This document shows, piece after piece, positions 7,001-63,000 of a stretch of 64,000 nucleotides of DNA (the first letter of the stretch is position 1; each line of letters begins with the position of its first letter). Where the stretch lies: positions 1,302,001 to 1,366,000 of the forward strand of contig OY730171.1 in the NCBI GenBank assembly GCA_963422465.1, written 5' to 3'. The notes beneath the pieces are model-generated. The model did no database searches. It was not told the DNA's origin and saw only the letters and a program-made list of their open reading frames with translations. Both the position numbers and the translations under genes were made by a program. This stretch comes from Lichina pygmaea. Lineage: Eukaryota; Ascomycota; Lichinomycetes; Lichinales; Lichinaceae.

Positions 7001-7290
7001 ATCAAGGTCAGACTATTTTTAGTCAAAAAGAAAACAGGACTAGTCAACATCAAGATACAACTACCAAGGGATACCAGAGTCTATCCAAACTTTCATATCT
7101 TAATGATTGAACCAGCTGACCAGAGCACACTCTTGCAGAAGATATTTTATTACCAGCCTGAAGAGGAAAGAGTTCAAAGTCAAACAAATTCTGGCTAAGA
7201 AAAGTCAGTGATACTTCATCAAGTGGAAAGAATACCCAGACTCAGAAAATACCTGGGAACTACTTAAGAACGTTAAGAACTGCCAGCTTT
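4070..7290 (+). pseudogene. Gypsy-A1 pol (PR-RT-RH-IN-chromodomain)
   Basis: A decayed pol region. Recognisable in order: protease (LVDSGAN near 4105 and MPWLKKYNPVVNW near 4330), RT (about 4650-5420), RNase H (about 5560-5960), integrase core (6255-6617, with DFITKLPKFKD and VDRFTKYLIVVLF), integrase C-terminal part and chromodomain (about 6900-7290). The order PR-RT-RH-IN and the terminal chromodomain place it among Ty3/Gypsy chromoviruses. Broken many times. Confidence 0.85.
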
Positions 7291-7667
7291 TTCTGTGATA
7301 GTTCCAGCAGGGGCAGGACTGAACAGCTTGGTCTGCAGAAGAGATATTGATGACTGTCACAGTCAAATTCTCACCATCCAACTCCATCTTCTTCACAAGA
7401 CACTGAAGCTTCTGTCTTGCAAAAACTTTAGCTTCTTCCAACATCTTCCACTTCTGAGAAAGACAGACTTGCACTGCAGAGAGTTGTTCAAAGAGTATTT
7501 TTTTTTTGATTTGATTCTTACACTGTTTGTAGCTTTATAGCTATGTAGATCTTCCAGCTAATAGTGAACTTCTTCAGAAAACCTTTAAAGAAATAAAAAC
7601 TGAAGACAGGGAGGTGACTAGAAAGTGTAGCAAAAGAAAATCTTGTAGTGTCTGGTAGGAAAAGCTT

Positions 7668-10600: not shown

Positions 10601-10910
10601 GAGAAGTAGAGGTATTTTCCAGATGAATTTCAAGAGAAACAAAGTCTTTACTCCAGAAAGTAGGGTGGAGAGATGACAGTTTCAGGTTTTTGTTAATAAG
10701 AAAAAGAGTTCTACCAATCTCTGGAGAATATAAAGAAAGAAATGAAGAAAAAACAGTTGAGGTGCTGGTTTGAAGGTGAGGATTCTTCCAGAGTTCTTGA
10801 AGTGCAATAATATCTACTTCTTGAAGAGTTGGGGTTGCTAGAAGTAGCTCTTGGACTGATTGGCTTTTCTGCACATTGTATTGAAGAAGTGTGAACTTTG
10901 TATTCTTCAT
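7668..10910 (-). pseudogene. LINE-A ORF2: endonuclease and reverse transcriptase
   Basis: About 1080 codons. The N-terminal apurinic-like endonuclease covers residues 1-235, with LQYNVQKSQ, LQELWKNPH, TDSNLHHPDW and the closing GSDHRPVLT. A basic linker follows (KVKEERRIRRQ). The RT occupies about residues 420-800, with GFRKGRSTESALFLLTSQ, LDISEAYNRVLPE and ALGFADDTNLLAF. The C-terminus holds a Cys/His motif (CSQAEETVKYITFSC-like) and the end box LLQKFLYWFMSLKRL. No RNase H domain is visible between RT and the C-terminus. Three premature stops break it: one CGA-to-TGA at 8652-8654 and two Trp-to-TAG between 8043 and 8078. The start overlaps the ORF1 stop as ATGA (10907-10910). It was probably competent before these point changes. 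Confidence 0.88.
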
Positions 10911-11121
10911 GTAGACATTTCATCTTCAAAGATCTTGAAGGGGTTGACTGACTGCTTTCCCCCTGTGTTTGTTGATCTTGTAGACAGAATTTGCACTTCT
11001 GGAGACTCTCCTCTTAGTCTCTCTGAGCTTCTAGTTGGCTCTATAGTTTTCTGTCTTTTTCCCCCTGGAAGAGTCTGTATGAAGGGGAAAGTAACTGGAG
11101 ACTGTGTGACTGGGACAGTGG
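10907..11121 (-). pseudogene. LINE-A ORF1, C-terminal fragment
   Basis: Roughly the last 70 codons of ORF1, ending FKIFEDEMST then TGA. The phrase EKDRKTIEPTRSSERL resembles EDRKKRKQGELVRTRSSARL in LINE-B ORF1 of copy 3, which supports the assignment. The zinc-knuckle part would lie upstream and is missing because the element is 5'-truncated here. The TGA shares bases with the ORF2 ATG. Confidence 0.7.
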
Positions 11122-20009: not shown

Positions 20010-23000
20010 TTAGAAAGAGAGTTGGTGGGCTAGGTTGAACTGGTCAAGTCTTTTCAAAGACATAAACCAGAAAAGAAGTTTAGGAAGTAGCTTGGAGGAG
20101 AATAAGATAGATGGGAAATCTTGTAGAGGGAATTGGACTTGTTGTTTTTGGTTTGAAAATTTGTTACAGAAAAAAGTGATGTGTTGGGCTGTTTCTTCTC
20201 CAAAACCACATGTGCATAGAGGGGAGTTAAAGTCTGGAACATTTACTCTGAAAAGAAATCTGGCCAGTCCTATTCTTGCTGACAGAATTTGAAGAAATAG
20301 ACTAGACTCAGCTTTTCTCAAATCTTTGAAGATATTGAGGTTTTTCTTCTGTGGCCTTCTGGTGAACATGTCCCAAATAGCAGAACAATTTCCTCTGCTT
20401 ACCTGCCATCTGGCTTCCCATTCTTTGTGGAAAACCTCCTGTAGACTTTTCTTTGAGAAGTCTTGGTTAGTAGTTAGTTGTTCCAGCCAGACTGTTCTCC
20501 AGTTTAGAGAAATAGTTGTCAGAGACTTTGGTGTAGTTCTGAGAGAAGAAACATAGAGAGAAATTTGACTGTGTAGTTTGTGGAGAAGTGTAGAAGGAGA
20601 GTTGGGTAGTGTGTTTGAATAGAAAGATGAAAGAAAACATGCTGTTCTCAGCTTGAAGTATAAGTCTAGAGGGGGTAGAAATAGTTCTGATTCAAGTAGG
20701 AAAATAGGAGTGGCTTTAAAGACACTTCCTATAGTTCTTAAACATTTATTTTGGAAAGTAGATAATGAAATAATATTAGAGAGTTTCTTTTGGGGATTGA
20801 ACCAGACTCCTACTGCATAACTAAGAAGAGATCTTAGTATAGCAGTGTAGACATGACGTGCTGTTAGGACTGGTAGTCCCCAAGTAGAGTAGGTTGTTCT
20901 GGATAAAGCTGAGAAATATTTGGAGGCTTTCTGTGACATGATTTTTTGGTGTTTTTTCCAGACAAGTTTTGAGTCAAAGTAAAGTCCCAAGATGCGCACT
21001 TCTTCTTTTGGTTGAAAAACCACTTCTCCAAGTCTTAGACTGAGTTGAAGATTGTCTCTTCTTCTTCTAGAAAAATGGAGAAGTTCATACTTTTCAGGTG
21101 CAAACTTCATACCATGTTTTCTTGCCCAGTCCTGACATTTGGAATGTGTAGACTTCAACTTGAGAAGGTTGCTTTTCAAGGAGGAGGAGAATGCAAGAAG
21201 ATTAGTGTCATCTGCAAAACCAAGTGCTGAAACTCCTTTCTCAGGGGTGTGTACAGTATTGTGCAGTTCTGAGATATAGAAAAGAAATAGAATAGGAGAG
21301 AAAGGTGATCCTTGAGGGACTCCACAGTATATAGGGAACTGGGGGGATTCTGAGTCATCAAACACCAGAGAGGTAGTACGTGAAGTAGTGAAGGAAAAGA
21401 TCCAGAATACAAACCACTTAGGAATCATTCTCTTAATCAGGATCTTTCTGAGAACTTCTGGCAAGACTCTGTCATAGGCTCCAGAGATGTCTAGAGAGAG
21501 AAGACTAGCAACCATTCCTTCTTTCCAGATCTTTTCTACCTGGGAGGTCAGAAGAAAAAGTGCTGATTCTGTTGATCTTCCTTTTCTGAATCCTATCTGG
21601 ATTTCTGGCAAGAGATTTTCTTTCTCAGCTAGTTCACTTAGTCTTGCAGCTGCAATAGCTTCTATTAGCTTCCCAATTGTATTCAGGAGAGCTATAGGGC
21701 GCCATGCTTTTGCTTGACAGTAGGATCCCTTGCCAGGTTTCCTTAGGCAGATTGTCTTGGCTGACTTGTACCTGTCTGGAAAGTATTCCAGTCTCCAGCA
21801 AGCCTCCAAAACCTTAGCAATTCTTTTGTTGAAAGGGTCTCCCAGTGCTCTTAGAAATCCATTTGGTAGAGTATCTTGGCCTGGTGCTGAGAGAGGTTTT
21901 TTCTTCTTTAGAACCTCTTGTACTTCTTTCTTGGAGACTTCTTGGGATAGTTGCCATTCCTGGGTTTCTTCTGGCAGGTCCTGTTCCTCTGGCTCTGGCT
22001 GTAGGGGAAGAGGGAAGAATTGAGTCCTGAAAGCTTCTGTTTTCTCTTCAAAAGACTTTGCCAGCTGTCCTTGTTGTCCTATAAGTTCTGGGACTATTGG
22101 TAGGTCAGGAACTTTGCCAGCTTTTTCTTTTCCCTATTTGGTAATTCTCCAGTAGTCCTGGGTTTCTGCTAGCTGGTGGAGATGTGTTCTGAATGTCTTT
22201 CTTTTGGCTTGTCTGATCAGACTCTTTTTCTTTTTAGTTATCTCCTCTAGTCTGGTGGTTTCCTCTTGGCCTTGGAGTACTTTTCTTCTTACTTTTCTTT
22301 CCTCCTGGATTATTTCTTTGATTTCCTGGTTCCACCATGGTACTGCATACCTGGACTCTTTGCAAGGTTGGGTTGTCTTGTTTGCAATTTCTTGGAGAGT
22401 TTTGTCCAGTCTTTCCAGGTAATCATCCACTTCTTTCTTGCTAGTAAGAGATGGAATAGGTGGTCGGTTATCAGCTTCTTGTCTTGCTTGACTAGCATCC
22501 AGAGTTCTCCAGTTCTTTTTGTCTGTTCTGGTTTTTGTTGGAGTCTCCAGACTGAGAATTGTGTGCACTGGTCTGTGGTCTGACCCTGTGTGGAATCTCA
22601 TGTTAATTTGTGAGTAAATAAGAGAATTAAGTAAAGAACTTGAAATAAAAGAAAGATCAATTGCTGATGAAGGTGGTTCTAGAAGAGTTCTTGCTCTTGT
22701 TGGTGTGTAGGGAGCTATTGCCAGCTCTAGTCCCTATTTGTCTGTTAGGTTCTTGAAGGATAAGGCCAGTTCTGAGTATAGCTGGCTTGACTTTGACCAA
22801 CTTGGGTGGTGGAGATTTGAGTCTGTCAGGAGAATATGTTCACCCTCTTTTTGGATAGCTTGTTCCAGTAGGTCTAGAAGAGTCTGAGCTGACTCTCTAT
22901 AGTTCCTTTGGCTTGTGGGTGTGAAATAGAGGTTGTGGATCCAGAATGACTTTGTTTGAACTCTTATCTTCAAGGAGACTAGATCTTTACTCCAGAAAAT

Positions 23001-25340: not shown

Positions 25341-25351
25341 TTTGGCAGGAG
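25341..25351. repeat. target-site duplication, right, of LINE-B copy 2
   Basis: Second copy of tttggcaggag; Gypsy-A2 continues with taggactgaacagct. Confidence 0.9.
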
Positions 25352-25763
25352 TAGGACTGAACAGCTCAGCCTGCAGAAGGGACATGTCAATGACTGATCA
25401 AGTCAAATCCTTGCTATCCAACTCCATCTCTTTCACCAGACACTGAAGCTTCTGCCTCGCACAGACCTTGGTGCCTTCCAACACCTTTCACTTCTGAGAC
25501 AGACAAACTTGCACTACAGCAAGTTGTTCAAAGAGTGCATCACACATTACTTCTTCAGCAGCCACATCCTCACAAAGGTTGTCCTGGGACATGTTCAGAG
25601 ATGCCCAGGACACAGAGACACAAGACCTCCCACACTGAGTGCACACAGCACACTTCAACTTATCATCTTCCTCTGGCATCTGGAAGCACAGACAACCACA
25701 GAGAACACAAAAGTCGCAGAGCTCACACATAACTTTGGAGACATGACCAGATTTCATCAAGAC
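25352..25763 (-). pseudogene. Gypsy-A2 antisense Cys-rich reading frame
   Basis: A frame on the strand opposite to pol, between the chromodomain and the 3' LTR, best open at 25488-25760. It starts MMKSGHVSKVMCELC near the 3' LTR, then has a dense Cys cluster including C-x2-C-x6-C (CAVCTQCGRSC), then LNMSQDNLCEDVAAEEV and a Glu/Lys/Leu-rich end. It runs toward the antisense of the chromodomain C-terminus. Related frames exist in A1 (7205-7474) and A3 (plus, 43040-43500). It shares position, orientation and the KVxC opening with the family-B antisense frame. Function unknown; broken at least once. Confidence 0.6.
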
Positions 25764-26340: not shown

Positions 26341-29300
26341 TCACAGAGATGATAGGTTTTCTGGTAAGAGTTGGTGTGCTAAGTTAAACTGGTCTAGTCT
26401 TTTCAAAGACATAAACCAGAGAAGAAATTCTTTAAGCACTTTAGGCTTTTGAAGTAAAGTAGAGAAATTGTAGGAAAGAAAAGTGGCTTGCTGTCTTTGA
26501 GTAAGAAACTTGTTACAAGAGAAAGTGATATATTGAGCAGTCTCTTCTCCAAAACCACAGGAACATAGAGGGGATTGGAAGTCTGGAATATTTGCTCTGA
26601 AAAGAAAGCTGGCTAGTCCTATCCTTGCTGATAGAATCTGCAAGTAAAGACTTGCTTCAGCTTTTCTCAAGTCTTTGAAAACTTTGAGATTTTTCCTTTG
26701 GGGTAGTCTGCAAAATAGCTCCCAGACTGGAGAACACTTCTGTCTGTTTGCCTGCTATCTGGCTTCCCACTCTTTCTGAAACACTTCTTGAAATTGTTTC
26801 TTAGAGTAATCTTGGTTAGTGGTTAGTTCTTCTAGCCATCTTGCTTTCCAGTTAGGTGTGACAGTAGACAGAGACTTTGGAAGTGTTCTCAGAGTAGAAA
26901 CAAAAACAGTGATCTGGGAAAAGAGCTTATAGAGAAGTGAGAAGAGAGGATTAGAAGAAGTATTAGGAAAATAGAAAGATTGTAGGAAAGTTGCTGTTCT
27001 GAATTTGAAATAAAGATCAAGAGGTGGTAGGAATAGTTCTTCTTCAATAAGAAATGTAGGAGTAGCTTTGAAGACACCTCCTATAGTTTTTAGACACTTA
27101 GTCTGGAAAAGATTTAGAGAAGAAATATTAGAAGGTTTTTTGTGGGGATTGAACCAGACTCCTACTGCATAGCTGAGAAGTGATTTCAGTATTGCAGTGT
27201 AGACAAGTCTAGCAGAGAGAACAGGTAGACCCCATGTAGAAAAAGTAGTTCTGGAAAGTGCTAAGAAAAACTTGGAAGCTTTCAGTAACATGATTTTCTG
27301 GTGTTTTTTCCAGAGAAGCTTGGAATCATAGTGTAGTCCCAGAATACACACTTCTTTCTTAGGCTGTAGTACCACTTCTCCAAGTCTTAGACTGAGCTGA
27401 AGATTATCTGTTCTTCTTCTAGAAAAATAGAGAAGTTCATACTTTTCAGGTGCAAACTTCATTCCATGTTTTCTTGCCCAGTCTAAACACTTGGAGTGAG
27501 TAGACTTTAGCTTCAGGAGATTGTTTTTAAGAGAAGGGGAAAATGCCAGAAGGTTTGTATCATCTGCAAAGCCCAGAGCTGATACACCTTTCTCTGGTGT
27601 ATGAACAATATTATAAAGATCTGAAATATAGAAAAGAAATAAAATAGGAGAGAGAGGTGAACCTTGAGAGACTCCACAGTGTACTGGGGACAAAGAAGAC
27701 TCTGAATCATCAAAAACAAGAGAGGTTTTTCTTTGGGTAGTGAAAGAAAAGATCCAGTTAACAAACCAGCTGGGAATTCCTTTTCTCTCCAGGATTTTCT
27801 TGAGAATTTCTGGCAGAACTCTATCATAAGCTCCTGAGATATCCAGAGAAAGAAGACTGGCTACCATTCCTTCCTTCCAGACTTTTTCAACTTGGGAAGT
27901 GAGTAGAAATAGTGCAGACTCAGTTGATCTTCCTTTTCTGAAGCCTATCTGGATTTCTGGTAGCAGGTTTTCTTTCTCAGCCAGTTCACTTAGCTTTGTG
28001 GCTGCCAGAGCTTCTATCAGCTTCCCAATTGTGTTGAGAAGTGCTATTGGCCTCCAAGCTTTGGCATAGCAATAGAATTCTTTGCTAGACTTTCTCAAGT
28101 ATATTGTTCTGGCTGCTTTGTATCTGTCAGGGAAATATTCTAGCTTCCAGCAGGCTTCCAGAACTTTGGCTATCTTTTCATTGAAAGAGTCTTCTAATAC
28201 CTTCAGAAATCCATTGGGTAGAGTGTCTTTCCTACAAGCTGTAAAAGGTTTTTTCTTTTTCAGAATATTGTGAATATCTTCTTTAGAGATTTCCTGAGAT
28301 AGCTGGTGTTGTTGGTGGTTGGCTGGCTGGTCCTGGGATTCTGGTACTGGCTGGAGAGGTAGAGGGAAGAACTGGGTTTTGAATACTTCTACCTTTTCTG
28401 TGAAAGTTCTGGCAGTTTCTCCATCTTACTTTGTGAGCTCTGGAACAATTGGAAGTTCTGGTGGTTTGCCAGCTTTTTCTTTACCCCACTTGGCTATTTT
28501 CCAGTGCTTTTGTGTTTCAGCCAGGTTCTGGAGTTGTTCTCTGAATATCTTTCTTTTAGCATTCTTGATCAGGTGTTTCTTTTCCTTTATTACCTTTTCA
28601 AGTTTGTAGACTGGTTCTTGGTTTTGGAAGACTTTTCTTCTTAGTTTTCTTTCCTCTTTAATTTTCTCTTTAATCTCTTGGTTCCACCAGGGAACAGTGT
28701 ACTTTGAGTCTCTCAGAGGTCTTGTTGTCTTGTCAGCCAGTTCTTGAAAAGCTTTGTCCAGGTTCTCCAGATAGTTGTCCACTTCCTCTCTGCTAAGTAG
28801 TGGTGGAATAGGGGGAAGATTTTTAGCTTCTTTCTTGACTTGGTCCAGATCTAGTGTTCTCCAGTTTCTTTGGTGGGTTCTGGCTTTCTTTGGTGTTTCC
28901 AGACTTAGGATTGTCTGAACTGGTCTGTGGTCTGAACCTGTGTGGAAGTCTAGGTTAATCTGAGAAGAAATAAAGAAATTAAGAAGTGACATAGAAATAA
29001 AAGATAAGTCAATAGCAGAGGAGGGAGGCTCTGCCAGTGTAGGTGCTATTGCCAGCTCTAGCTCTTGATCATCTGTGAGTTCTTTGAACTTAGTAGCTAG
29101 TTCAGAGTAGAGTTGGGAGGATTTTGACCAGGATAGGTGGTGGAGGTTTGAGTCAGTCAGAAGATTATATTCTCCTTCTTTCTCCAGTGCCTGGGCCAGT
29201 ACATCCAGTAGAGCTTCTGCTGATACTCTGTAGTTTTCCTGGTTTGTAGGTGTGAAGTACAGGTTATGTACCCAGAACACTTTTGCTTGCACTCTTATCT

Positions 29301-43039: not shown

Positions 43040-43500
43040 CTTTCATCATCTTGATGAAATCTGGTCATGCCTCCAAAGTCATGTGCGACTGTTAGCTGAC
43101 CTCAGCTTGCTACTCAAATCCGTGATCGGGGTTTTGTTTCACGTACGCCCTACAACTTTTGTGTTCTCCGTGGTTGTCTGTGCTTCCAGATGCCGGGAGA
43201 AGATGATAAGTTGAAATATGCTGCGTGCACTCAGCACAGGAGGTCTTGTGTCTCTGTGTCCTGGGAATCTCTGAACATATCCCAGAACAACCTCTGTGAG
43301 GATGTGGCTGCTGACAAGGCAACACACAACACACTCTTCAAACAACTTGCCACAGTGCAGACTTGTCTGTCTTGGAAGTGAAAGGTGTTGGAGGGTGCTG
43401 AGGTCTGTGCAAGGCAGAAGCTTCAGTGCCTAGTGAAAGAGATGGAGTCGGATGGTGAGGATTTGACTTGATCAGTCATTGACATATCCCTCCTGCAGGC
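43040..43500 (+). pseudogene. Gypsy-A3 antisense Cys-rich reading frame
   Basis: Antisense to the element, starting just inside the 3' LTR (MKSGHASKVMC-like at about 43056). It shows MPGEDDKLKYAACTQHRRSC (43190 onward) and SWESLNISQNNLCEDVAA, then CARQKLQCLVKEMESDGED and LLQAKLFSPTPAK, and runs into the complement of the chromodomain end. It carries about 60 bp near its start that are not seen in A2. Broken. Confidence 0.55.
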
Positions 43501-43514
43501 TAAGCTGTTCAGTC

Positions 43515-46500
43515 CTACTCCTGCCAAAACTGTCGCAGAAGAAGCTGGCAGTTCACGAAGTTCTTGAGTGGTTCCCAGGTATTTTCTGAGTGTGGGTATC
43601 CTTTCCACTTGACAAGGTATTGCTGATCTTTCCTAGCCAGGATCTGTTCAACTTCAAATTCTTGTTCTTCTTCAGGTTGATAATGAAATGTTTCCTGCAA
43701 GGGTGTGCTCTGGTCAGCTGGTTCAATCATCAATATGTGAAAGTTTGGATGGACTCTGGCACCCCTTGGTAGTTGTATCTTGACGTTGACTAGTCCTGTT
43801 TTTTTTTTGACTGAAAATAGTCTGACCTTGATATTGTCAAGTTTCTTCATCTTTGGTTTTTTTGTTTTCCAATTTTTTGTGAGGAGGTAGACTTTATCCC
43901 CCTTCTTTAGCTGAGGTGCCATTTTTGATTTCTTGTCTATTTGGCATTGTATTCTTTCTGAGGTCTCTTGAAGATAGTGCCTCATCATTGTGTGTGTTTG
44001 TTGTAGGAGCTTGTCATGTTGGAGTGCTTTCTCCATGTTTGGTGAAGCTCTGCTTGGCATCCCAATATTCACATGTTGTCCAAAATTGGCAAAGAATAGC
44101 GATTCCTTTGTTGAGTCTGATCTGTGCTGGTTGATTGCCAGCTGTGCCACCGGTAATAACTGTACCCAATTGCTGTGGGTCTGGTTGATGTAATACTGTA
44201 AGTAAGTCTCCAGGACTTGGTTTGCTCACTCTGTCTGGCTGTCAGTTTATGGGTGATAGATTGTAGACATTTTGGATTTTGTTCCCATAGCTGCACTGAT
44301 TGTCTTCCAGTAATTGGACATGAAGAGTTTGTCTCTGTCTGTAATGATCATGATTAGAACTCTGTGGTCTCTGACTAATCTGTCCAGTAAGAGGTGTTCC
44401 AACTGTTCTGCTGTGTGGGTCTCCTTGAATAGTACTGCTATTAGATATTTTGTGAATCTGTCCACTATCACCATAATCAAGTTGTAGGTGATTCCTGTGA
44501 CTGGGTCTTTGGACTTGGGTAACTTTGTGATGAAGTCTATTGACACATCTTCCCACAGGCCTCTCAGTATCATGTTCGGGTGTCCTTCTCCATATGGCTT
44601 GTGTCTTCTGTGTTTGTTTTTCTGGCACAGTAGACATTTGCTGATGTAGCTTGTGACATGTTGTCAGAGGTTGATGATATTGTTCCCTGCCTGTTGGATA
44701 AGGTCTGTGGTCTTGGTGATTCCTGGGTGACTATGTGCTGGATTGTCGTGGTAGTTCCTTATTAGTTCTTCAGTGTCTTCTGCTGTGAGCTTGTTGATCT
44801 GTAGTTGTGGCACCAGGTTTCCTTGCTGGTCCTGCTGTAAGATTGTTCCTTGGTGTTCATCATCTTCTATGTGGTCTTTTTGTCAGCTTAGTGTGTCTGC
44901 TCTCCTGTTGTCTTGTCTGGGGGTGTACAAGATCTTAAACTTGTGTTGCCCTAGGAGTTCAGTCTATCTGACTTGCTGTCTGTTCAGCTTCTTGGTTGTT
45001 GTGAACATTGTCAGATTCTTGTGGTCTGTGAGAACAGTGAGTTCAGAACTACTTTCCGTGTACACTCTCCAGTGTTCAAGTGTGTTGACAACTGCCAGTA
45101 GCTCTTTGTCGTGGATATCATAGTTCTGTTCTGCTTGTATTATTTTTTGTGAGTAGTAGGCAACTGGGTGCCACTTGCTGTCTGCCTGTTGGCATAAACA
45201 TACTCCTACTGCCTGATCTGAAGTGTCTGTCTTGATTTGTGTCGGTTGGCCTGTCTTGAAGTTGAGGAGAACTGGTTCCTTGGCACAAGTGTCCTTGAGC
45301 TGCTGGAATACTTTTTGTTGTCTCTCTGTCCACCAGTACTCTATATCCTTCTTTGTGAGTTCTGTCAGTGGTGTTACTATCTGCGAGTAGTTCTTGATAA
45401 ACTGTCAGTTGAAGTTGGCAAATTCTAGGAAGGCTTGTACTTCCTTAACTGATGTCAGTGTTGGCCATTGCTGAATCACTTTGATTTTCTCAGGGTTGAT
45501 CTTGATCTCTTCGATTCCTATGATGTATCTGAGGAATTCAACTTCCAGTTTGTTGAACTTGTATTTCTTCAGGTTGAGCTTGAGCCCTGCCTCTTGTAGG
45601 TATCGTAGAACATTCTTCACATGTTTGGTATGTTCCTGTTGCGTGTTCAAGTAGACAAGAATGTTGTCCAAGTAGGTGATAGCTGTTTGGTCCAGGTGTG
45701 CTCTGATAATGTTGTTGATCAATGCTTGACATGTTGCTGGTGTATTCATGAGTCTGAATAGTATAACCAGATACTTGTAGTGTCTGTATCAGGTTCTGAA
45801 GGCTGTCTTCCATTCTTCTCCTTCTTTCATGCGTATCAGGTTGTATGCTTCTTTCAAGTCCAGCTTGGTAAAGATTGTAGCTTGGCTGGTCCTGTCTTGC
45901 AATTCATTCACATTGAGCAACAGATATCAGTTTTTGATGGTAATATTGTTGAGTTTCCTGTAATCCACACAAAGTTGAAGACTTCTGTCCTTCTTTGGTG
46001 CAAATAGTATCAGGTATCCTGCTGGCGATTGAGATTCTTGAATGAAACTCTTTTTCAGATTTTCCTCCAGGTACTTGTGAAGTACTTGGAGCTCTTTCTC
46101 TGATAACTGGTAAATTGGTCCAAATCCTGGCTCTGTCTCTGGTTACAACTTGATCTCATGATCCCAAGGTTAGTGCTTAGGCAACACTACTGTTGTTGTC
46201 TCTTCCTGAAAGAGGTTATCATACCCAGGTCAGTACTCTTCAGGGATCTCCAGAGGGTTAACAACTTCCTCTCTCTTTATCTCTGACTGTTTGGCCACCT
46301 GGTTCTGGGGTATGCCTGTCAAGGCAGACTTCTTCTCTTGAGAGTCATCCTTTCTGTCAGTGAGGTTCCACTGAGGACTTCTTCCCTTATCTGTCCACAC
46401 CTTCTGCGGCTGGTAACAGGTCCAAGCTGTGTTGTTAGTGCAGTTCCTAAACATGAGTACTTCTATCCTCCAGTTAACAACTGGGTTGTGCTTCTTTAGC

Positions 46501-49120: not shown

Positions 49121-49272
49121 GGAATCCTGCTGACAAGGTTGAATCGACTGTGAAGAAGTCGAAGAAGAAGAGGAGAAGAAGAGCCTAGAGGAAAAGGCTG
49201 CAAAGAAGAGTCTAGAGGAAAAGGCTGTAAGGAAGGGCTAGCCACGACATTAGCAGAAGGCAAGCCAATAGG

Positions 49273-50120
49273 ATGGAAGACAAGAAGGAACAGGGCAGGA
49301 AGGTCCTGCTCTGGGGTCCAGAGAACTATGAAGACTGGGCACAAGTTATCAGGATGCGGCTATTGGCCGCAAGAGTCTGGCACACCGTCCTTGTAGAGCC
49401 AGAAGAGTCAGAGATGAAGCCTGCCCAAACGTCAGCAACAGGATCCAAAGGTCAACAGATCGAGGCCACAAAGGAGTGGCAGGATAGCAAGGCAGAAGAA
49501 GGAAAGGCAGCAGACATCATACTGTCGTCAATTAGTGAAGAGCAGCAAAAACACGTCAGACAGATCAAGCACCCCTACCACATCTGGAAGACCCTGAAAG
49601 GGATCCACGAACAGCCGAACAACGAGAAGCTGCACAACACAATGGTACAGCTGTTTTCGAAGGACCTCGGCCGAACGATCGAAGAGAGAGGGTCGAGGAT
49701 CCGTGTGCTCAATGCTGAAATAGAGAGCTACGACTCGACGCTGAAACTGCCGGAAAAGACATTAGTGATCCTGCTCCTAGAGTCGTTGACGCCAGAATAC
49801 AACACCATGAAGAAGATCCTCATAACGACGGATCAGATCGACGAACTGGACAAGGTCCTGCAGAAGTTAGCAGGAGAAGAGGCATGGATTGTCAAGGGAG
49901 AAGCGGAGCAGGCACTGGCTGTCCGTAAAGAGGGCAAAGGACAGAGCAAGGGCTGACGAGACAGAAAGGACATGAAGTGCTTCCGGTGTGACCGGACAGG
50001 GCACAGGAAGTCTGAATGTTTCGCGACACGGTCAGCAGACAGAACCCCATTGGAGGACGAACCCCCAGTGAAACCCAGGAAGAGAGGGGAGAAGGCAAGA
50101 GCGGCAACATACCGGGAGGA
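49273..50120 (+). pseudogene. Copia gag
   Basis: UBN2-type Copia gag: WGPENYEDWAQVIRMRLLA, IKHPYHIWKTLKGIHEQ, LPEKTLVILLLESLTPEYN and EEAWIVKGEAEQAL. A CCHC knuckle follows at about 49975-50020 (CFRCDRTGHRKSEC) with a basic region after it (KPRKRGEKARAA). Broken about once. Confidence 0.88.
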
Positions 50121-50129
50121 TGAGGAAGG

Positions 50130-52068
50130 AGAGAAGACCTACCTCACTTGCCTTGTACCGGAGCTGGTGATCGGGGAACCACGGACGAGCGATTGGATTG
50201 TTGACAGCAGTGCGACCTGACACATGAGCTGGGATCTCGGACTATTCGTTGAGTTGAAACCTATGGGAGGCCACCTGTCAGTAGCCAACGGAGACAGGCT
50301 TGCGATCAAAGGTGTAGGAACTGTATGGACCCGGTTCAACCAGCAGAGCAGTGTTGCGACAGTCACAGGAGTGCTGTACGTACCTGGATTGACTGCCAAC
50401 TTGATGTCAGTTTCAGATCTGGACAAGAAGGGGTTCAAGACAACAACAAAGAATGGGGAGATGGCCATAATAAAGAATGGCAGAAGAAGGGTAACAGCCA
50501 GAAGAGAAAAGGGCACGTACCACTTGAAGGCAAATAGCGAGGTAGTCCTCGCGACAGGACAGGAGAGCCCGACCAGCGGGGCTGGACAGGAGAGTCCTGC
50601 AGACACGAAGAAGAAGACCTGGCACCGGAGGCTAGGGCATGCAAGCAAGGCTGTCATGAAGAGGGCAGCACTCACCGGCAAACTCGAAGAGTTCGAGTAC
50701 GATGAGGAGGAAGTCAAGAACTGTGAGGACTGCATGTTAGCCAAAATGCAGAAGACTCTCCGGAAGAAGGCTGAAGCAACAACAACAAGAAAGCTCGAAC
50801 TGGTGCACACTGATGTGTGCGGACCTCTGCAAGATGAAGGGTACGACAGATCACGGTACCTGCTGACGATGATTGATGACTGGACCCGGATGACGTGGGT
50901 GTATCCCATGAAGCTCAGGAGTGAGCTACCCGTCGCTTTTGGCAGCTGGAAAGCCATGGTGGAACAGGAATCCGGCGAGAAGCTGTGCAGGATACGGTGT
51001 GACAACGCCAAAGAATACATCAGTCAGTACTTGAAGTGTCTGAAGCCAGAGGGAGTAAGAGAAGAACCCACCGTGCCGTACAACCCACAGCAAAACAGGG
51101 TTGCCGAGCGGTATAACCGAACAATTATCGGTCGGGTGAAAGCGATGTTGGCGGACGCAGAGCTGCCGATGCAGCTGTGGCCCGTAGCAGCCCAGACGTC
51201 AGCGTACCTGGACAACAAGCTGTCACACGGGGACAGGAAGGACTTGCCGGAAGGAGAATGGACAGGACGGACTGTCAACGCAGGCCATCTGAGAGCCTTT
51301 GGGTGTGTCGCATACATGCATATACCGAAGGAGAAGAGGAAGAAGTTAGGTCAACTGGCCTGGAAAGGAGTAATGGTGGGGTACCGGGGTAATCACATTT
51401 ACCTGGTATGGAACCCGGAGACAAAGAAGATTGCGGCTGCAGCGTCCGTACGATTCATGGAAGAGATCGTGGGACAACGAGCGCAGGTGCGACCTAAGGA
51501 GAAGGTCAGCATTGAGGGGGGGTGGCCACGGGTCACCTCAGGGCCTGAGCACGGCATTGAGGGGGGGTGGCCACAGGTCGCCTCAGTGCCCGAGCAAAGG
51601 AGAGAGAGACAGGTGCAAGGCGTACCTGATCGGTCGGACGAACCGGACGAAGAAGACAGTGACGAAGAGTCAGTAAGATACGACACGGAAGGGACAGAAG
51701 ACTCACCTTGGCAGCCCCGACAAGGAGTGGCTGAAGGACCAGCTGAAGCACCTGAGGAAGGAGCTCAGGAGTCGAACAAGTCCGAAGGAAGAGGTCGTGT
51801 GGAGCCTGAAAGAGGTCCACAAGAGAACAGGGCCACAGGCAAGGCCACGAAGGAAGGGTCTGAAAGGGCACAGGAAACAGAGCCAGCGAGGCGGAGTACG
51901 CAGATCCGCAAGGCAACAGGGAAGGCAAAGGAAGGTGCCTTCACAACAGAAGAATTGGTGTCTGTACTGACGATTCCGAGGTCGGATACGTGCCTTCTGC
52001 GGAAATGCTCTCAGACAAGCCACTCAGCATTCAGGCACGGAAGGAGAAGCTGCAGGGACTTGGTCTGA
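50130..52068 (+). pseudogene. Copia protease and integrase with repetitive tail
   Basis: Protease around 50190-50430 (DWIVDSSAT at the usual DSG site, VLYVPGLTANLMSVSDLDKK). GAG-pre-integrase zinc region: WHRRLGHASKAVMKR and CEDCMLAKMQK. Integrase core: LVHTDVCGPLQDEGY, IDDWTRMTWVYPMK, RCDNAKEYIS and NPQQNRVAERYNRTI, which supply the DDE residues. After WNPETKKIAAAASVRF comes a tail with two tandem IEGGWP..V repeats (51510-51600) and a Glu/Arg-rich low-complexity end. No RT motif follows. Confidence 0.88.
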
Positions 52069-52876: not shown

Positions 52877-53220
52877 TGTTAAGGCCCAGGCCGGAACGGC
52901 TGAGCCGACCGAAGCGAGTGTACAGAGGTACACGGAACAATGTTCACCCAACCCGGTGGACGAGGTGGACGATGTGTAACCAGCTCGTCCAGCTCGTCCA
53001 CGCAGAAAGCTGATACCCCTCGGGAGGACCCCCCCCCCTCAGGCTCCTGTATATAAGAACCCAGATAGCCGGAGAGAATAGCTCTCCAGGCTGAACGCAC
53101 ATTACGAGCGACAATAGCAAGAGAGTTACCCCACTTGCTATTCATCTATTGAGTCTCTGCCTTCCTCAGTCGAAGACAAGACCACCCACATTCTGAGTGG
53201 ACGTGGACTGGCCTTTAACA
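52877..53220 (+). repeat. 5' LTR of Gypsy-B1
   Basis: 344 bp, TGTTAAGGCC to CCTTTAACA, with one copy of the ~46-bp gtggacgaggtggacgatgt unit. TATA-like tatataag at 53050; aggctgaa at 53088-53095. Confidence 0.93.
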
Positions 53221-57800: not shown

Positions 57801-58210
57801 AGGGACCAACCCTGGAGAGGGGGGATAAGGTCTATTTGTCAACAAAAAACCTGCGCTTGAAGCGACTGAGCAAAAAGCTGGATCATGTACGAATCAGACT
57901 GTTTGAAATTGAGAAGCGCACTGGAGAAGTCAACTACTGACTGAGACTGCCAAAAAAAGCATGGATACACTGAGTATTCCATGTCTCGCTGCTTGAGCCA
58001 GCACCCAGCGACGCAGCAATCGAAACAGAATAGCACTTCGAGGACAACAAAGAAGAGTACGATGTTGAAAGAATCCTAGACAGCTGGAGAAGTGGACGGA
58101 AAATTGAATACCTGGTCAAGTGGTTAGGGTATGACAATGAGGAGAACTCGTGGGAACCCACTGAGAACTTCAGCCCTGCGATGAACAAGAAACTGCGGAG
58201 TTTCCACCAA
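54880..58210 (+). pseudogene. Gypsy-B1 pol (PR-RT-RH-IN-chromodomain)
   Basis: Protease about 54900-55230 ([37 protein letters not shown]). RT 55500-56230 ([55 protein letters not shown]). RNase H about 56300-56800 (METDASDQALGSCLCQPD). Integrase 57077-57620 (MDFVVKLPRSEDPVTKVKYD, VDKLTKYAHLILW, AYHPQIDRQTERTNQ). Chromodomain about 58040-58205 (EYDVERILD-type start, YLVKWLGYDNEENSWEPTEN). Around ten breaks. Confidence 0.9.
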
Positions 58211-58684
58211 CAAAACCCGCAGAAGCCAGGATTGATGGAGACAAAGGCTCGAGAGAAGCCAAAGCCTCCAAAGAGAAGAAGTCCTCCAAAGGCGGTGGAG
58301 ACTCCACACACGTAGCCTCCTGCTCAAGATCCTCCTGATCCTTGATCGTAGCAAGCTCACGCTTGATGGCCTCACCCTCCTTCTTGGACAACACACCCAA
58401 CTGACAACAGAGACAAAGTTTGCGAGGAAGGAGAACAGACTCCTACTCCTTGATCTCCTTCAGTTGAGCCTCAAGCTGAGTGCACTCAAGCTCCATCTTC
58501 TCCCACTCCAACTCCGCGAGATGGAGATCGCAACAGCAACCCTTCTCAAGGCACTGACCGCAAAATATAGACTCTGAACTGACAACACACTTGGCACGGT
58601 CACGACAACATGTGCTGCATGAAACTTTGGATACCTTGCCCATCTTGCCAACACAAGAACTGAGAACTCCACGATGATTAACAT
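58170..58684 (-). pseudogene. Gypsy-B1 antisense frame: Zn2Cys6-like plus coiled coil
   Basis: Antisense to pol, between the chromodomain and the 3' LTR; it starts within about 70-110 nt of the LTR and ends over the complement of the chromodomain C-terminus. The frame reads MGKVSKVSCSTCCRDRAKC, then CGQCLEKGCCCDLHL, giving C-x2-C-x6-C-x8-C-x2-C-x4/6-C, near the fungal Zn2Cys6 spacing. A Glu/Leu-rich coiled-coil stretch (ELECTQLEAQLKEIKE) follows, then a CLCC pair (PRKLCLCCQLGVL) and a Pro/Ser-rich end (ESPPPLEDFF). About 165 codons, broken about once. The same frame exists in B2. No known function; not part of the standard Gypsy set. Confidence 0.7.
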
Positions 58685-58754
58685 GAGATGTCTGGGTTAT
58701 GGTAAGAGAAGCGAGAGGATCTGGGGACAGAACCTTTGGAGGGAGGGGATAGTG

Positions 58755-59060
58755 TTAAGGCCCAGGCTGGAACAGCTGAGCTGACTGAAGCGAGTGTACA
58801 GAGGTACACAGAACAATGTTCACCTGACCCGGTGGACAAGGTGGACGATGTGTAACCAGCTTGTCCAGCTTGTCCACGGTGGACAAGGTGGATGATGTGT
58901 AACCAGCTTGTCCAGCTTGTCCACGCAGAAAGCTGATACCCCTTGGGAGAACCCCCCCCCCTCAGGCTCCTGTATATAAGAACCCAGATAGCCAGAGAGA
59001 ATAGCTCTCCAGGCTGAACGCACATTACAAGCGACAATAGCAAGAGAGTTACCCCACTTG
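58755..59060 (+). repeat. 3' LTR of Gypsy-B1, first piece
   Basis: Starts TGTTAAGGCC after the polypurine tract gagggaggggatag and breaks off at accccacttg where B2 begins. It has two copies of the ~46-bp unit, against one in the 5' LTR. Confidence 0.92.
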
Positions 59061-59451
59061 TGTTAAAGGCCAGTCCACGTCCACTCAGAATGTGGGTGGT
59101 CTCGTCTTCGACTGAGGAGGGCAGGGACTCAATAGATGAATAGCAAGTGGGGTAACTCTCTTGCTATTGTCGCTCGTAATGTGCGTTCAGCCTGGAGAGC
59201 TATTCTCTCCAGCTATCTGGGTTCTTATATACAGGAGCCTGAGGGGGGGGAGTCCTCCCGAGGGGTATCAGCTTTCTGCGTGGACGAGCTGGACAAGCTG
59301 GTTACACATCGTCCACCTCGTCCACCGTGGACAAGCTGGACAAGCTGGTTACACATCATCCACCTTGTCCACCGGGTCAGGTGAACATTGTTCTGTGTAC
59401 CTCTGTACACTCACTTCAGTCGGCTCAGCTGTTCCAGTCTGGGCCTTAACA
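59061..59451 (-). repeat. 3' LTR of Gypsy-B2
   Basis: 391 bp; on the minus strand it reads TGTTAAGGCC to CCTTTAACA. Two copies of the ~46-bp gtggac unit. Confidence 0.93.
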
Positions 59452-59503
59452 CCATCCCCTCCCTCTAAAGGTTCTGTCCCCAGATCCTCTCGCTTCTCTT
59501 ACC

Positions 59504-60032
59504 ATGACCCAGACATCTTGTGTTAATCATCGTGGAGTCCTTGGTTCTTGTGTTGGCAAGATAGGCAAGGTATCCAAAGTTTTATGCAGCGCATGTTGTC
59601 GTGACTGTGCCAAGTGTGTTGTCAGTTCAGAGTCCACATTTTGCGGTCAGTGCCTTGAGAAAGGTCACTGTTACAATCTCCATCTTGTGGAGTCGGAGTG
59701 GGAGAAGATAGAGCTTGAGCGCACTCAGCTCAAGGCTTAACTGAAGGAGATCAAGGAGCAGGAGTCCGTTCTCCTTCCTCGCAAACTTTGTCTCTGTTGT
59801 CAGTTGGGTGTGTTGTCCAAGAAGGAGGGTGAGGCCATCAAGCGTGAGCTTGCTGTGATCAAGGATCAGGAGGATCTTGAGTAGGAGGCTACGCGTGTGG
59901 AGTCCCCACCGCCTTTGGAGGACTTCTTCTCTTCGGAGACTTTGGCTTCTCTCAAGCCTTTGTCTCCATCGATCCTGGCTTCTGCGGGTTTTGTTAGTGG
60001 AAACTCCGCAGTTTCTTGTTCATCGCAGGGCT
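59504..60032 (+). pseudogene. Gypsy-B2 antisense frame: Zn2Cys6-like plus coiled coil
   Basis: Same frame as in B1. It opens MTQTSCVNHRGVLGSCVGKI 53 nt from the inner end of the 3' LTR. The cluster KVLCSACCRDCAKC then CGQCLEKGHC has C-x2-C-x6-C-x8-C-x2-C-x5-C spacing. Coiled-coil-like EWEKIELERTQLKA follows, then PRKLCLCCQLGVLSKKEGEA, IKRELAVIKDQEDLE and a Pro/Ser-rich end. It stops over the complement of the chromodomain end. Position next to the LTR suggests an antisense promoter in the 3' LTR (inference). Broken about twice. Confidence 0.7.
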
Positions 60033-63000
60033 GAAGTTCTCAGTGGGTTCCCACAAGTTCTCCTCATTGTCATACCCTAACCACTTGACCAGGTATTCAA
60101 TTTTCTGTCCACTTCTCCGGCTGTCTAGGATTCTTTTGACATCGTACTCTTCTTTGTTGTCCTTGAAGTGCCATTCTGTTTCGATTGCTGCGTTGCTGGG
60201 TGCTGGCTCAAGCAGCGAGACATGGAATACTTGGTGTATCCGTGCTTTTTTTGGCAGTCTCAGTCGGTAGTTGACTTCTCCAGTGCGCTTCTCAATTTCA
60301 AACAGTCCGATTTGTACATGATCCAGCTTTTTGCTTGGTCGCTTCGAGCGCAGGTTTTTTGTTGACAAATAGACCTTATCCCCCCTCTCCAGGGTTGGTC
60401 CCTTCAACCTTTTGCTGTTTAGGTGGTGGCTTGTTGTCTTTTGTGCGGATTCAATTGCAGTCTTCATTTCCTCATGCATAGCAGTGAGTTTTTCAATGTT
60501 TGTTGAAGTGCCACTTCCAGCTGCCATCGCTTCCCAGCGGGGGTTTCTGCTGTAGTTCGCAAAGAACAGTATCATGCCCGTCACGCTGTGTTGCTGATTG
60601 TTGTACACAAACTGAGCCATTGGTAGCAGTTCTACCTAATCGTCCTGTCGGTGGTTGACGTAGTGGCGTAGGTACTGTTCTATCGTCTGGTTTGTTCTCT
60701 CAGTTTGTCCATCTGTTTGTGGATGGTAGGCAGTAGACATCCTTGTGTCTATCCCTAGCTGTCTTGTCCACGTGTTCCAGAATTTTGAGGTGAAGAGTTT
60801 GTCTTGATCTGAGATAATCTTCGTGGGTAGCCCTCGCTGGCTAACCAATTCTTTGAGCAGGACATTGGCGAGTTTGCTCGCTGTTCCTGTCTCTCACCAC
60901 AGGATCAGGTGAGCGTATTTGGTGAGTTTGTCAACAACCACCAAGATACTGTTATATTTCACCTTTGTTACCGGGTCCTCTGACCTCGGCAGCTTCACCA
61001 CAAAATCTATTGTGATGGTATCCCAAGCCACTTCTGGGAGATCTATTTGTTGACTCTCTCCATAGGGTTTGTGGCGTGACAGTTTGTTTTTCGCACACTC
61101 TTCGCAGTTGCGAATAAATTCTGTCACTTTCCACTTCATTCTGTTGAAGTGGTAACGTCTCCGGATCTTTTCCAGGGTCTTGTCTTGCCCAGGATGTCTG
61201 TGTAGAGGTCCATCGTGATGTTGTTGAATCATGTCCTCTTGTGCGCTCTCTGGTACTTCTTCCTTGTTTGTGGCCGCAACGTTGTGGCCTAGGGTCAGGA
61301 GTGCACCTATTTCTTCAGTTCTCGCTAACTGAGGTTGAGCATAGACCAGAGTTTGTCCTTTTGTCACCAGGATTGGGCGCTCTTCTGTCATGTCATCTGT
61401 TGTCATATCAGTCCGCCTGCTAAGTGTGTCCACTTGTGTGTTTTCTGATCCTTTTCGATAGAAGATCTGGAAGTTGTATGAAGCTAAAAGCTCTGCCCAT
61501 CAGACTTGTTGTCTGTTTAGCTTCTTCGTCGTCGTGAAGTAAGCCAAATTCTTGTGGTCTGAGTACACGTCCACTGTGTACTTTGCTTCTTCCAGGTAAG
61601 GTCTCCACTCCTGGAATACGTTGACAATCGCTAACAACTCCTTGTCGTGAACATCGTACCTGAGTTCTGGGCCAGAGAACTTTCTTGATCAGTATACGAC
61701 AGGGTGTAGGTGGTTTTCGGCGTCTGGTTAACATAAGCAAGATCCAAGTGCTTGGTCCGAGGCATCCGTCTCCATGATGATCTGCCGCCCGGGATCAAAT
61801 GATGCCAGTATGGGTGTGGAGGTGAACTTCTCTTTCAGCTCCTGGAACACTCTCTCTTGGCTGTTCCCCCAAGTGAAGGTTTCTTCCTTCTTTGTTAGTT
61901 CAGTCAAGGGTGCTGCTGTCCTCGAGTACTCCTTGATGAATCGTCGGTAGAAGTTCGCAAATCCCAGGAAGGATTGGACTTCTTTGAGGTTTTTGGGTGT
62001 TGGCCAGTCTTGTACTGCCATGATCTTTGTATCGTCCATACAGATTCCTTCTGTTGTCAGGATTGATCCCAAATATTCCACTTCTTTCACGTGGAAGACA
62101 CTTTTATCAAAGTGTAACCTTATTCCTGCTTCTTGGAGTGCATGTAGGATCTTCTTGACATGCTGTCTGTGCTCCTCCAGGGTTCCATTGGTGTAAACCA
62201 AGACATCGTCAATATAAGTAGTAACAAATATATCCAGGTATTGTCGGAGGATAGTGTTAATAAGCGATTGGAACATCACCGGTGCATTCGTAAGGCTGAA
62301 TGGCATAACAGTATACTTGTAATGCCCGTACCTTGTACGAAAGGCTGTCTTCCATTCTTCACCATCTTTCATCCTAACCAGGTTGAAAGTGCCTCAGATG
62401 TCGAACTTGGTAAACTACTTGGCTCCTTGGATTCAGTCCTAGATTTCTGATATTAGTGGTAGTGGGTAGCAATTCTTAATTGTGATCGCATTGAGCTGCT
62501 GGTAGTTGATGCACAGTCGTAATTTGCTGTCCTTCTTTGGCACAAACAATATCGGGTATCCGGCCGGTGATGTTGAAGGTCTTATGAACCCTTTCGCTAG
62601 GTTCTCGTCCAGGTAATCTCTTAAGGCCTCAAGCTCCTTTGCTGATAGAGCGTAAATAGGGCTGTGTGTGGGTTTCTTTCTGTCTTCCAGCGGAATTTCG
62701 TGATCCCACTCTTGGTGTTCTGGTAGCGTCACGACCGCTTCCTCACCAAACATCTCCTGGTAGTCTTTATACTCACTTGGCAGCTGCGGTGCCTGAGTCT
62801 CACCCACGGCGTCTTGCGTGGTGCAAAGTTGTTGTGTTTGGGGCTTCATCCAAGCCACATAGGCTCGCCCTCGCCGGTGGTGCTTCTTCCACCCTGCATA
62901 TAAGATCTCTTTGATTCTCACTTTCTCTGGCTCTGCTCGAGTTGCCAGACTCCTCTTCGGAAAGACTAGGTGCTTTCTTTTCCAGTCGATCCTTGGGTTT

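Follow-up and report, generated by a model that had tools for sequence, protein, structure and literature searches.

An antisense gene with a putative Zn2Cys6-type cluster beside inverted LTR half-sites in chromodomain Gypsy elements of Lichina pygmaea

Introduction

Boty-like Gypsy elements of Botrytis cinerea are said to carry an antisense gene, brtn, the subject, reportedly, of Zhao et al. 2011 (Virology 417:248). Here we describe antisense genes in comparable elements of the ascomycete Lichina pygmaea, some of which lie in a stretch of 64,000 nucleotides (nt) of contig OY730171.1 (assembly GCA_963422465.1, positions 1,302,001 to 1,366,000), hereafter the window.

Passages of the published work describe the Boty-like element as having a gag-pol with a CHROMO domain together with brtn-106 (PMC4227169) and count brtn among the antisense open reading frames (ORFs) situated between pol and the 3′ long terminal repeat (LTR) (PMC7264820); passages of PMC8365987 also cite brtn, and BRTN appears as a protein name in PMC5987419. 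Antisense ORFs described from plants include gene23 of Grande, TRP28 (PF04195) of Retand, and those of RIRE2 and PvRetro13 (PMC7264820, PMC11963269). TRP28 is given there as a predicted DNA-binding protein (PMC11963269), and tandem repeats are recorded in about half of the Retand elements (PMC7264820, PMC11963269). An antisense gene is also placed at the 3′ end of the human T-lymphotropic virus 1 (HTLV-1) provirus, namely HBZ, which encodes a nuclear protein (PMC11963269). For the 3′-end antisense genes of LTR retrotransposons in plants and Botrytis, the function is stated in these passages not to be known (PMC7264820).

Two elements in the window, B1 and B2, belong to a family that we term F1, and a frame runs opposite to pol in both, as the first-pass annotation of the window had observed. 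Judged from its codon changes, this frame is a gene under selection as a protein and not a chance open frame. It has the cysteine spacing of a fungal Zn2Cys6 cluster and lies beside inverted half-sites in the unique 3′ (U3) region of the LTR, leading us to consider an accessory DNA-binding regulator the best inference for its product.

Results

The genome examined comprises 32.5 Mb in 8 contigs. Our F1 sample consisted of 40 copies, namely B1, B2, and 38 that were fetched, with 40 of 271 candidates scored; for a second subfamily, F2, 150 of 279 candidates were scored and 30 fetched. A third family, F3, was found via its chromodomain, has its antisense frame at the same place as F1 and F2, and was sampled as nine fetched copies, its subfamily F3c being based on two loci.

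Ratios of nonsynonymous to synonymous change (dN/dS) were calculated by the Nei-Gojobori method, skipping codons that contained a stop or gap. Between F1 and F2 (40 × 30 copies) the antisense frame had a dN/dS of 0.27 over 175 codons and of 0.22 when restricted to the 125 codons that pol does not overlap, whereas the other five frames of the pol-free bases gave 1.04, 2.13, 0.93, 0.42, and 1.74 (the last being the pol phase). The frame at 0.42 was read as a shadow of the antisense frame, because it shares third positions with it and has ~7 stop-bearing codons per pair. Between subfamilies F3a and F3c (14 pairs) the antisense frame gave 0.16 and the shadow frame 0.27. Per pair, the shadow frame contained ~7 and 6 stop-bearing codons (F1 × F2 and F3, respectively), whereas the antisense frame contained 0.4 and 2.1. 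Of 1000 neutral simulations for F1 × F2 (60 drawn of the 1200 pairs) and 1000 for F3 (14 pairs), none was as low as the highest observed ratio of nonsynonymous to synonymous differences (pN/pS). The purifying selection that the first-pass annotation had named as support is thus present, the values of 0.22 and 0.16 lying below all neutral simulations. Within the 50-codon overlap with pol the antisense frame, shadow frame, and pol phase gave 0.43, 0.33, and 0.99, and therefore the overlap alone would not settle the matter. The F1 and F2 genes differ in length within the frame by 36 nt and 6 nt.

A hand count of the genome-wide listing at 85% identity or more found 53 of 61 copies, B1 and B2 among the 61, to be stop-free. 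In the F1 sample the antisense frame was stop-free in 34/40 copies vs. 17/40 for a pol stretch of the same length read in the pol phase. For F2 the corresponding figures were 21/30 (whole frame of 189 codons) and 19/30, and therefore the contrast between antisense frame and pol is limited to F1. The 150 scored F2 matches were judged from the second Met onwards, and 115 had no stop (hand count); one of the nine fetched F3 copies was without a stop. Neutral F1/F2 simulations retained at most one stop in 167 of 1000 cases. Recent capture of a single host gene in a few copies was ruled out, the frame being present in no fewer than 61 F1 copies and no fewer than 150 F2 matches. A long sense-strand open frame was also seen opposite the F2 antisense gene at L049, L054, and some further F2 loci; this sense phase is broken in F1 and has no constraint between F1 and F2.

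The first-pass annotation had also likened the cysteine pattern to the fungal Zn2Cys6 cluster, and this likeness proved closer than first described. In less decayed copies the spacing is C-x2-C-x6-C-x8-C-x2-C-x6-C; of the two final spacings originally given, x6 stands and x4 does not, since it reflects an extra Cys where other copies have Arg (by eye). The canonical spacing, C-x2-C-x6-C-x(5-12)-C-x2-C-x(6-8)-C, was matched by 35/40 F1, 27/30 F2, and 9/9 F3 copies, the Cys positions being held across copies and subfamilies, and is beyond chance as judged by shuffling: 0, 0, and 1 of 100,000 shuffled versions of one natural F1, F2, and F3 protein, respectively, matched it. The profile search that had been proposed gave matches to the Zn_clus family that were mostly below threshold. 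At E ≤ 10 they were found for 7 of 22 members, with 0.00076 as the best E value, and for 3 of 9 in a second set (best 0.24), and the bit scores displayed were 12.5–16.3, below the cut-off of 21. The Pfam scan gave no Zn_clus match for L025 or for the F3 protein of L079, and in three F1 proteins no basic leucine zipper (bZIP) was among the Pfam matches at E ≤ 10. DUF3716 matched one F3 protein weakly (13.8 of 22 bits), and its name was absent from the open-licence papers searched. An NCBIfam search returned a single match at chance level.

Structural comparison pointed the same way as the spacing. The AlphaFold model of a relative, P0001, had 11 PDB entries listed against it, all of them Zn2Cys6 domains with low Z, and PPR1 superposed on the model at 1.5 Å over 35 residues. 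A helix is predicted after the cluster at residues 63–133 (71 residues), with a predicted local distance difference test (pLDDT) of 83–96 for residues 71–130; the heptad scores of five proteins were reached by 209, 105, 31, 125, and 43 of 2000 shuffles. Sequence searches of the PDB gave weak matches to HAP1/CYP1/GAL4 (E 0.59 to 2.6 among seven rows); with an F1/F2 profile, coiled-coil and RING proteins were best and CYP1/HAP1 had E values of 4.2 and 6.4, and with F3 no match of Zn2Cys6 type was returned. Comparison of the F1/F2 and F3 profiles found no usable homology.

Tandem units are present in the U3 of 36/40 F1 copies (47 or 69 bp), 26/30 F2 copies (35 bp, up to six units), and 9/9 F3 copies (50 or 42 bp), located in the interval from antisense ATG to sense TATA; the remaining four F1 and four F2 copies have a single unit. 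F1 and F2 have common half-sites, GTGGACGAG and CTCGTCC, which occur in both orientations in 40/40 and 30/30 U3s when CpG decay is allowed for. Within a unit their distance is 19 nt in F1 and 18 nt in F2. Between units they form palindromes that are closer and of other spacing, CTCGTCC-ACGGT-GGACGAG in F1 (18/40) and CTCGTCC-GGT-GGACGAG in F2 (28/30). Comparison of 4/40 F1 and 2/30 F2 copies, picked among the single-unit ones and ignoring CpG decay, found the half-sites 100% alike, the flanking parts 75–77%, and the stretch between half-sites 44%. In F3a the half-sites are GTGAGC/GCTCAC (7/7 copies) and in F3c they are of the GTCTCGA/TCGAGAC type (2/2), with no cross-occurrence in either direction among these seven and two copies. 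The loop that joins the second Cys to the third is nearly alike in F1 (RRDRAK) and F2 (RRDHAK); in less decayed F3a and F3c copies it reads VLRGRP and VLNHKP, respectively. In five tests, 0, 1, 1, 0, and 1 of 200 dinucleotide shuffles were at least as rich in palindromes as the U3 itself; for L047 the number was 10 of 200, and for controls from the adjoining R-U5 part of the LTR it was 4, 2, 22, and 99 of 200.

The gene and these repeats have been transferred jointly. The 30 loci with an F2 gene include 24 with F1-type pol (96–98%) and six with F2-type pol, and a three-piece model, F1-F2-F1, fitted the 24 chimeras with 7 to 18 mismatches at 228 informative sites. L075 fitted poorly (32 mismatches of 228), and L061, nested and with a short pol match, was omitted from the test. 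The 5′ break fell 42–95 alignment columns upstream of the antisense stop, and the 3′ break fell beyond the TATA in 22 chimeras and between the repeats and the TATA in L067 and L071. From these positions it follows that the whole antisense gene and all repeats are inside every fitted swap (24/24).

The claim of an antisense promoter in the 3′ LTR finds support in a sister family and not in the family for which it was made. In F3 a TATA facing the antisense gene lies 77–79 nt before its ATG in 10/10 copies, including the window copy at 43067; such a TATA was found in 61 of 5000 base-shuffled 60-nt stretches. In F1 it was found in 0/40 copies, and in F2 in 1/30, namely L075, in which the sense TATA was not found.

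The positions of features in the window are collected in Table 1. Both window copies of the antisense gene are decayed. For B1, the first-pass annotation had given a frame of 58170-58684, which must be withdrawn, as the ATG at 58684 is out of frame and yields an unrelated translation; the true extent is 58170-58700, and ATA (58700-58698) stands where the start codon should be. For B2, reported as 59504-60032, the start was correct, whereas the end is at 60034 (stop codon included) and stops interrupt codons 79 and 127. Neither does the frame begin 50–110 nt inside the LTR: its ATG is 52 nt internal to the LTR edge in 40/40 F1 copies (edges 58753 and 59451 in the window). The frame does overlap the tail of pol, as had been said, over only ~145 nt in B1. 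Half-sites in the B1 array are inverted GTGGACGAG / CTCGTCC, in part CpG-decayed. Many of the changes among copies replace Arg with Cys, His, or Gln, the outcome expected of C-to-T decay at CpG (by eye).

Table 1. Positions in the window of the antisense genes and of associated element features.
Feature	Position	Strand	Remarks
Antisense gene of B1 (F1)	58170..58700	-	176 codons + stop; ATA at start codon, TAG at codon 86
Antisense gene of B2 (F1)	59504..60034	+	176 codons + stop; TAA at codon 79, TAG at codon 127
Predicted Zn2Cys6-type cluster of B1	58530..58619	-	Codons 28-57
Predicted Zn2Cys6-type cluster of B2	59585..59674	+	Codons 28-57
pol stop codon TAG of B1	58313..58315	+	By eye; phase agrees with pol phase
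Polypurine tract of B1	58738..58752	+	In the stretch from antisense ATG position to 3′ LTR; by eye
3′ LTR of B1	58753..59060	+	Shortened by B2 insertion
U3 array of B1	58830..58925	+	Two 47-bp units; half-sites at 58832, 58869, 58879, 58916
Sense TATA box in B1 3′ LTR	58973..58980	+	
3′ LTR of B2	59061..59451	-	Minus-strand element; sits inside B1 3′ LTR
U3 array of B2	59279..59374	-	Two 47-bp units; half-sites at 59280, 59317, 59327, 59364
5′ LTR of B1	52877..53220	+	Single array unit, half-sites at 52956, 52993; sense TATA 53050-53057
F3 antisense gene	43067..43564	+	Opposite long minus-strand frame; three internal stops; antisense TATA 77 nt before ATG
F3-type antisense gene remnant	25341..25748	-	Decayed
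F3-type antisense gene remnant	7276..7516	-	Decayed

Chromodomain matches (PF00385) lie beside the antisense frames of F1 (e.g., C3:3217601-3217753) and F3, and integrase-type pol sequence was judged by eye. The predicted pol, with an integrase and a C-terminal chromodomain, places the host elements among the Ty3/Gypsy chromoviruses. Protein searches, whose reach was limited to relatives sharing 5-residue words, included P0090, which has 61% identity to F3 and no match above 65% in the genome among the 150 candidates scored of 506, and therefore may come from another genome. Further loci hold decayed genes related to the F1 antisense gene (~58–66% identity, 194-codon frame; e.g., C2:2666798-2667322 and C4:3627715-3628230) that seemingly belong to neither F1 nor F2. 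C-to-T decay at CpG seems to lie behind many of the differences between copies (by eye), which points to methylation-linked mutation or mutation resembling repeat-induced point mutation (RIP). B2 was inserted in inverse orientation within the B1 3′ LTR (58753-59451), and the LTRs of B1 are unequal in array length, the 5′ LTR having one unit and the 3′ LTR two. Elsewhere in the window, long frames resembling those of long interspersed nuclear elements (LINEs) and Copia-type elements were seen by eye at 8658-10919, 20013-22133, and 26758-28425 on the minus strand and at 49231-52065 on the plus strand.

Discussion

Fungal Zn2Cys6 transcription factors bind paired half-sites, and we think it somewhat probable that these retrotransposons encode a Zn2Cys6 regulator that acts on their own LTR via the U3 half-sites. 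Each family carries, between pol and the 3′ LTR, an antisense gene whose product of 165–190 residues would have a Zn2Cys6-type cluster and, behind it, a long helix. Antisense transcription would begin in or beside the 3′ LTR, and the protein would dimerise via its helix and bind the inverted half-sites repeated in U3; having been made from the 3′ LTR, it would find identical repeats in 5′ LTRs. The order of antisense gene, (TATA), operator repeats, TATA, and gag-pol would then constitute a divergent control region. In the 5′ LTR, U3 precedes the sense TATA, and in the 3′ LTR it adjoins the antisense gene, so that a single protein could govern gag-pol as well as the gene that encodes it, in the manner of a divergent operator. 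As to the sign of this control, our guess is repression that senses copy number, rather than activation.

Several of our own observations weigh against this proposal. Openness of the frame is by itself weak evidence. The spacing of half-sites within units is nearly equal in F1 and F2, and the low shuffle counts in some R-U5 controls indicate that the R-U5 of F1 is palindrome-rich too. The joint swap could be explained by adjacency alone, and the independent swap events may be few.

That the frame is open merely by chance, through composition or as a shadow of the sense gene, might be argued from the neutral simulations that kept at most one stop, from the near-equal openness of antisense frame and pol in F2, and from the low dN/dS of the shadow frame (0.42 and 0.27), which in the pol overlap falls even below that of the antisense frame. 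However, the shadow frame is rich in stops and is not the pol phase, which evolves at 1.74 (0.99 in the overlap), and F1 antisense frames are stop-free twice as often as pol; we regard chance as very improbable and reject it. A role for the antisense RNA rather than the protein, by pairing with gag-pol RNA and feeding silencing or dampening expression, accords with passages in which antisense transcripts are discussed as possible retrotransposon regulators (PMC7264820). We hold it improbable as a sole explanation, because selection acts at the protein level: purifying selection on codons in two independent comparisons, and length differences that keep the frame, would not be expected of a non-coding RNA. 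RNA and protein roles may coexist.

A weightier alternative is that the protein is selected and nuclear and acts on host DNA or chromatin, as in integration targeting, nuclear entry of the pre-integration complex, or anti-silencing, with the U3 repeats serving host factors. The antisense protein of maize Grande is described in passages of PMC7264820 as nuclear, with its role unknown, the link from our protein to the U3 repeats is indirect, and conserved half-sites could serve any factor. Yet the half-sites differ where the cysteine loop differs (F3a and F3c) and agree where the loops are near-identical (F1 and F2), and the gene and U3 repeats travel jointly, so that we consider action on host targets rather unlikely.

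Self-regulation through U3, the reading we prefer, can be extended, tentatively, to the possibility that the antisense Zn2Cys6 regulator and the matching U3 operators between divergent promoters form swappable cassettes of self-control. Loop and half-site would diversify and the cassettes would be exchanged during reverse transcription, in which two template switches would yield joint swaps, giving rise, inside a single genome, to groups akin to immunity groups, by analogy with the repressor-operator modules of phages. Two families of one genome, F1/F2 and F3 being without detectable homology, have a common DNA-binding-cluster spacing and are each found beside inverted half-sites of their own. 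A retrotransposon might in this way control the level of its own expression, and each family may make its own genetic switch. Since each gene has its own half-sites beside it, a candidate target can be named and the question of function becomes directly testable.

The closest described counterpart is brtn of Boty, likewise an additional antisense gene of a fungal chromodomain Gypsy element, a likeness drawn from its description; the passages citing Boty describe no U3 repeats, which are present here. Plant antisense ORFs have the same position and orientation as ours, and GENE23 is described as nuclear and TRP28 as a predicted DNA binder, whereas the protein families differ and the Retand repeats are placed between pol and the 3′ LTR rather than in U3. 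HBZ is also encoded by an antisense gene at the 3′ end of its element and at most works alike, being a basic leucine zipper protein of a retrovirus, in contrast to the Zn2Cys6 type of a fungal retrotransposon. The proteins share with GAL4, HAP1, PPR1, PUT3, LEU3, AlcR, and Pho7 the Cys spacing and, as predicted, the arrangement of the cluster and a helix after the linker, and differ from them in being short and encoded antisense in a retrotransposon, in having no recognised activation domain, and in displayed Pfam scores below the cut-off. In the open-licence literature searched (titles, abstract starts, and passages), no antisense retrotransposon protein of Zn2Cys6 type was reported. The class of gene is therefore already known, and what is new, as far as that search extends, is the Zn2Cys6 reading, together with the selection measured for several families within a single fungus, the half-sites specific to each family, and the swapping of gene and repeats as a unit.
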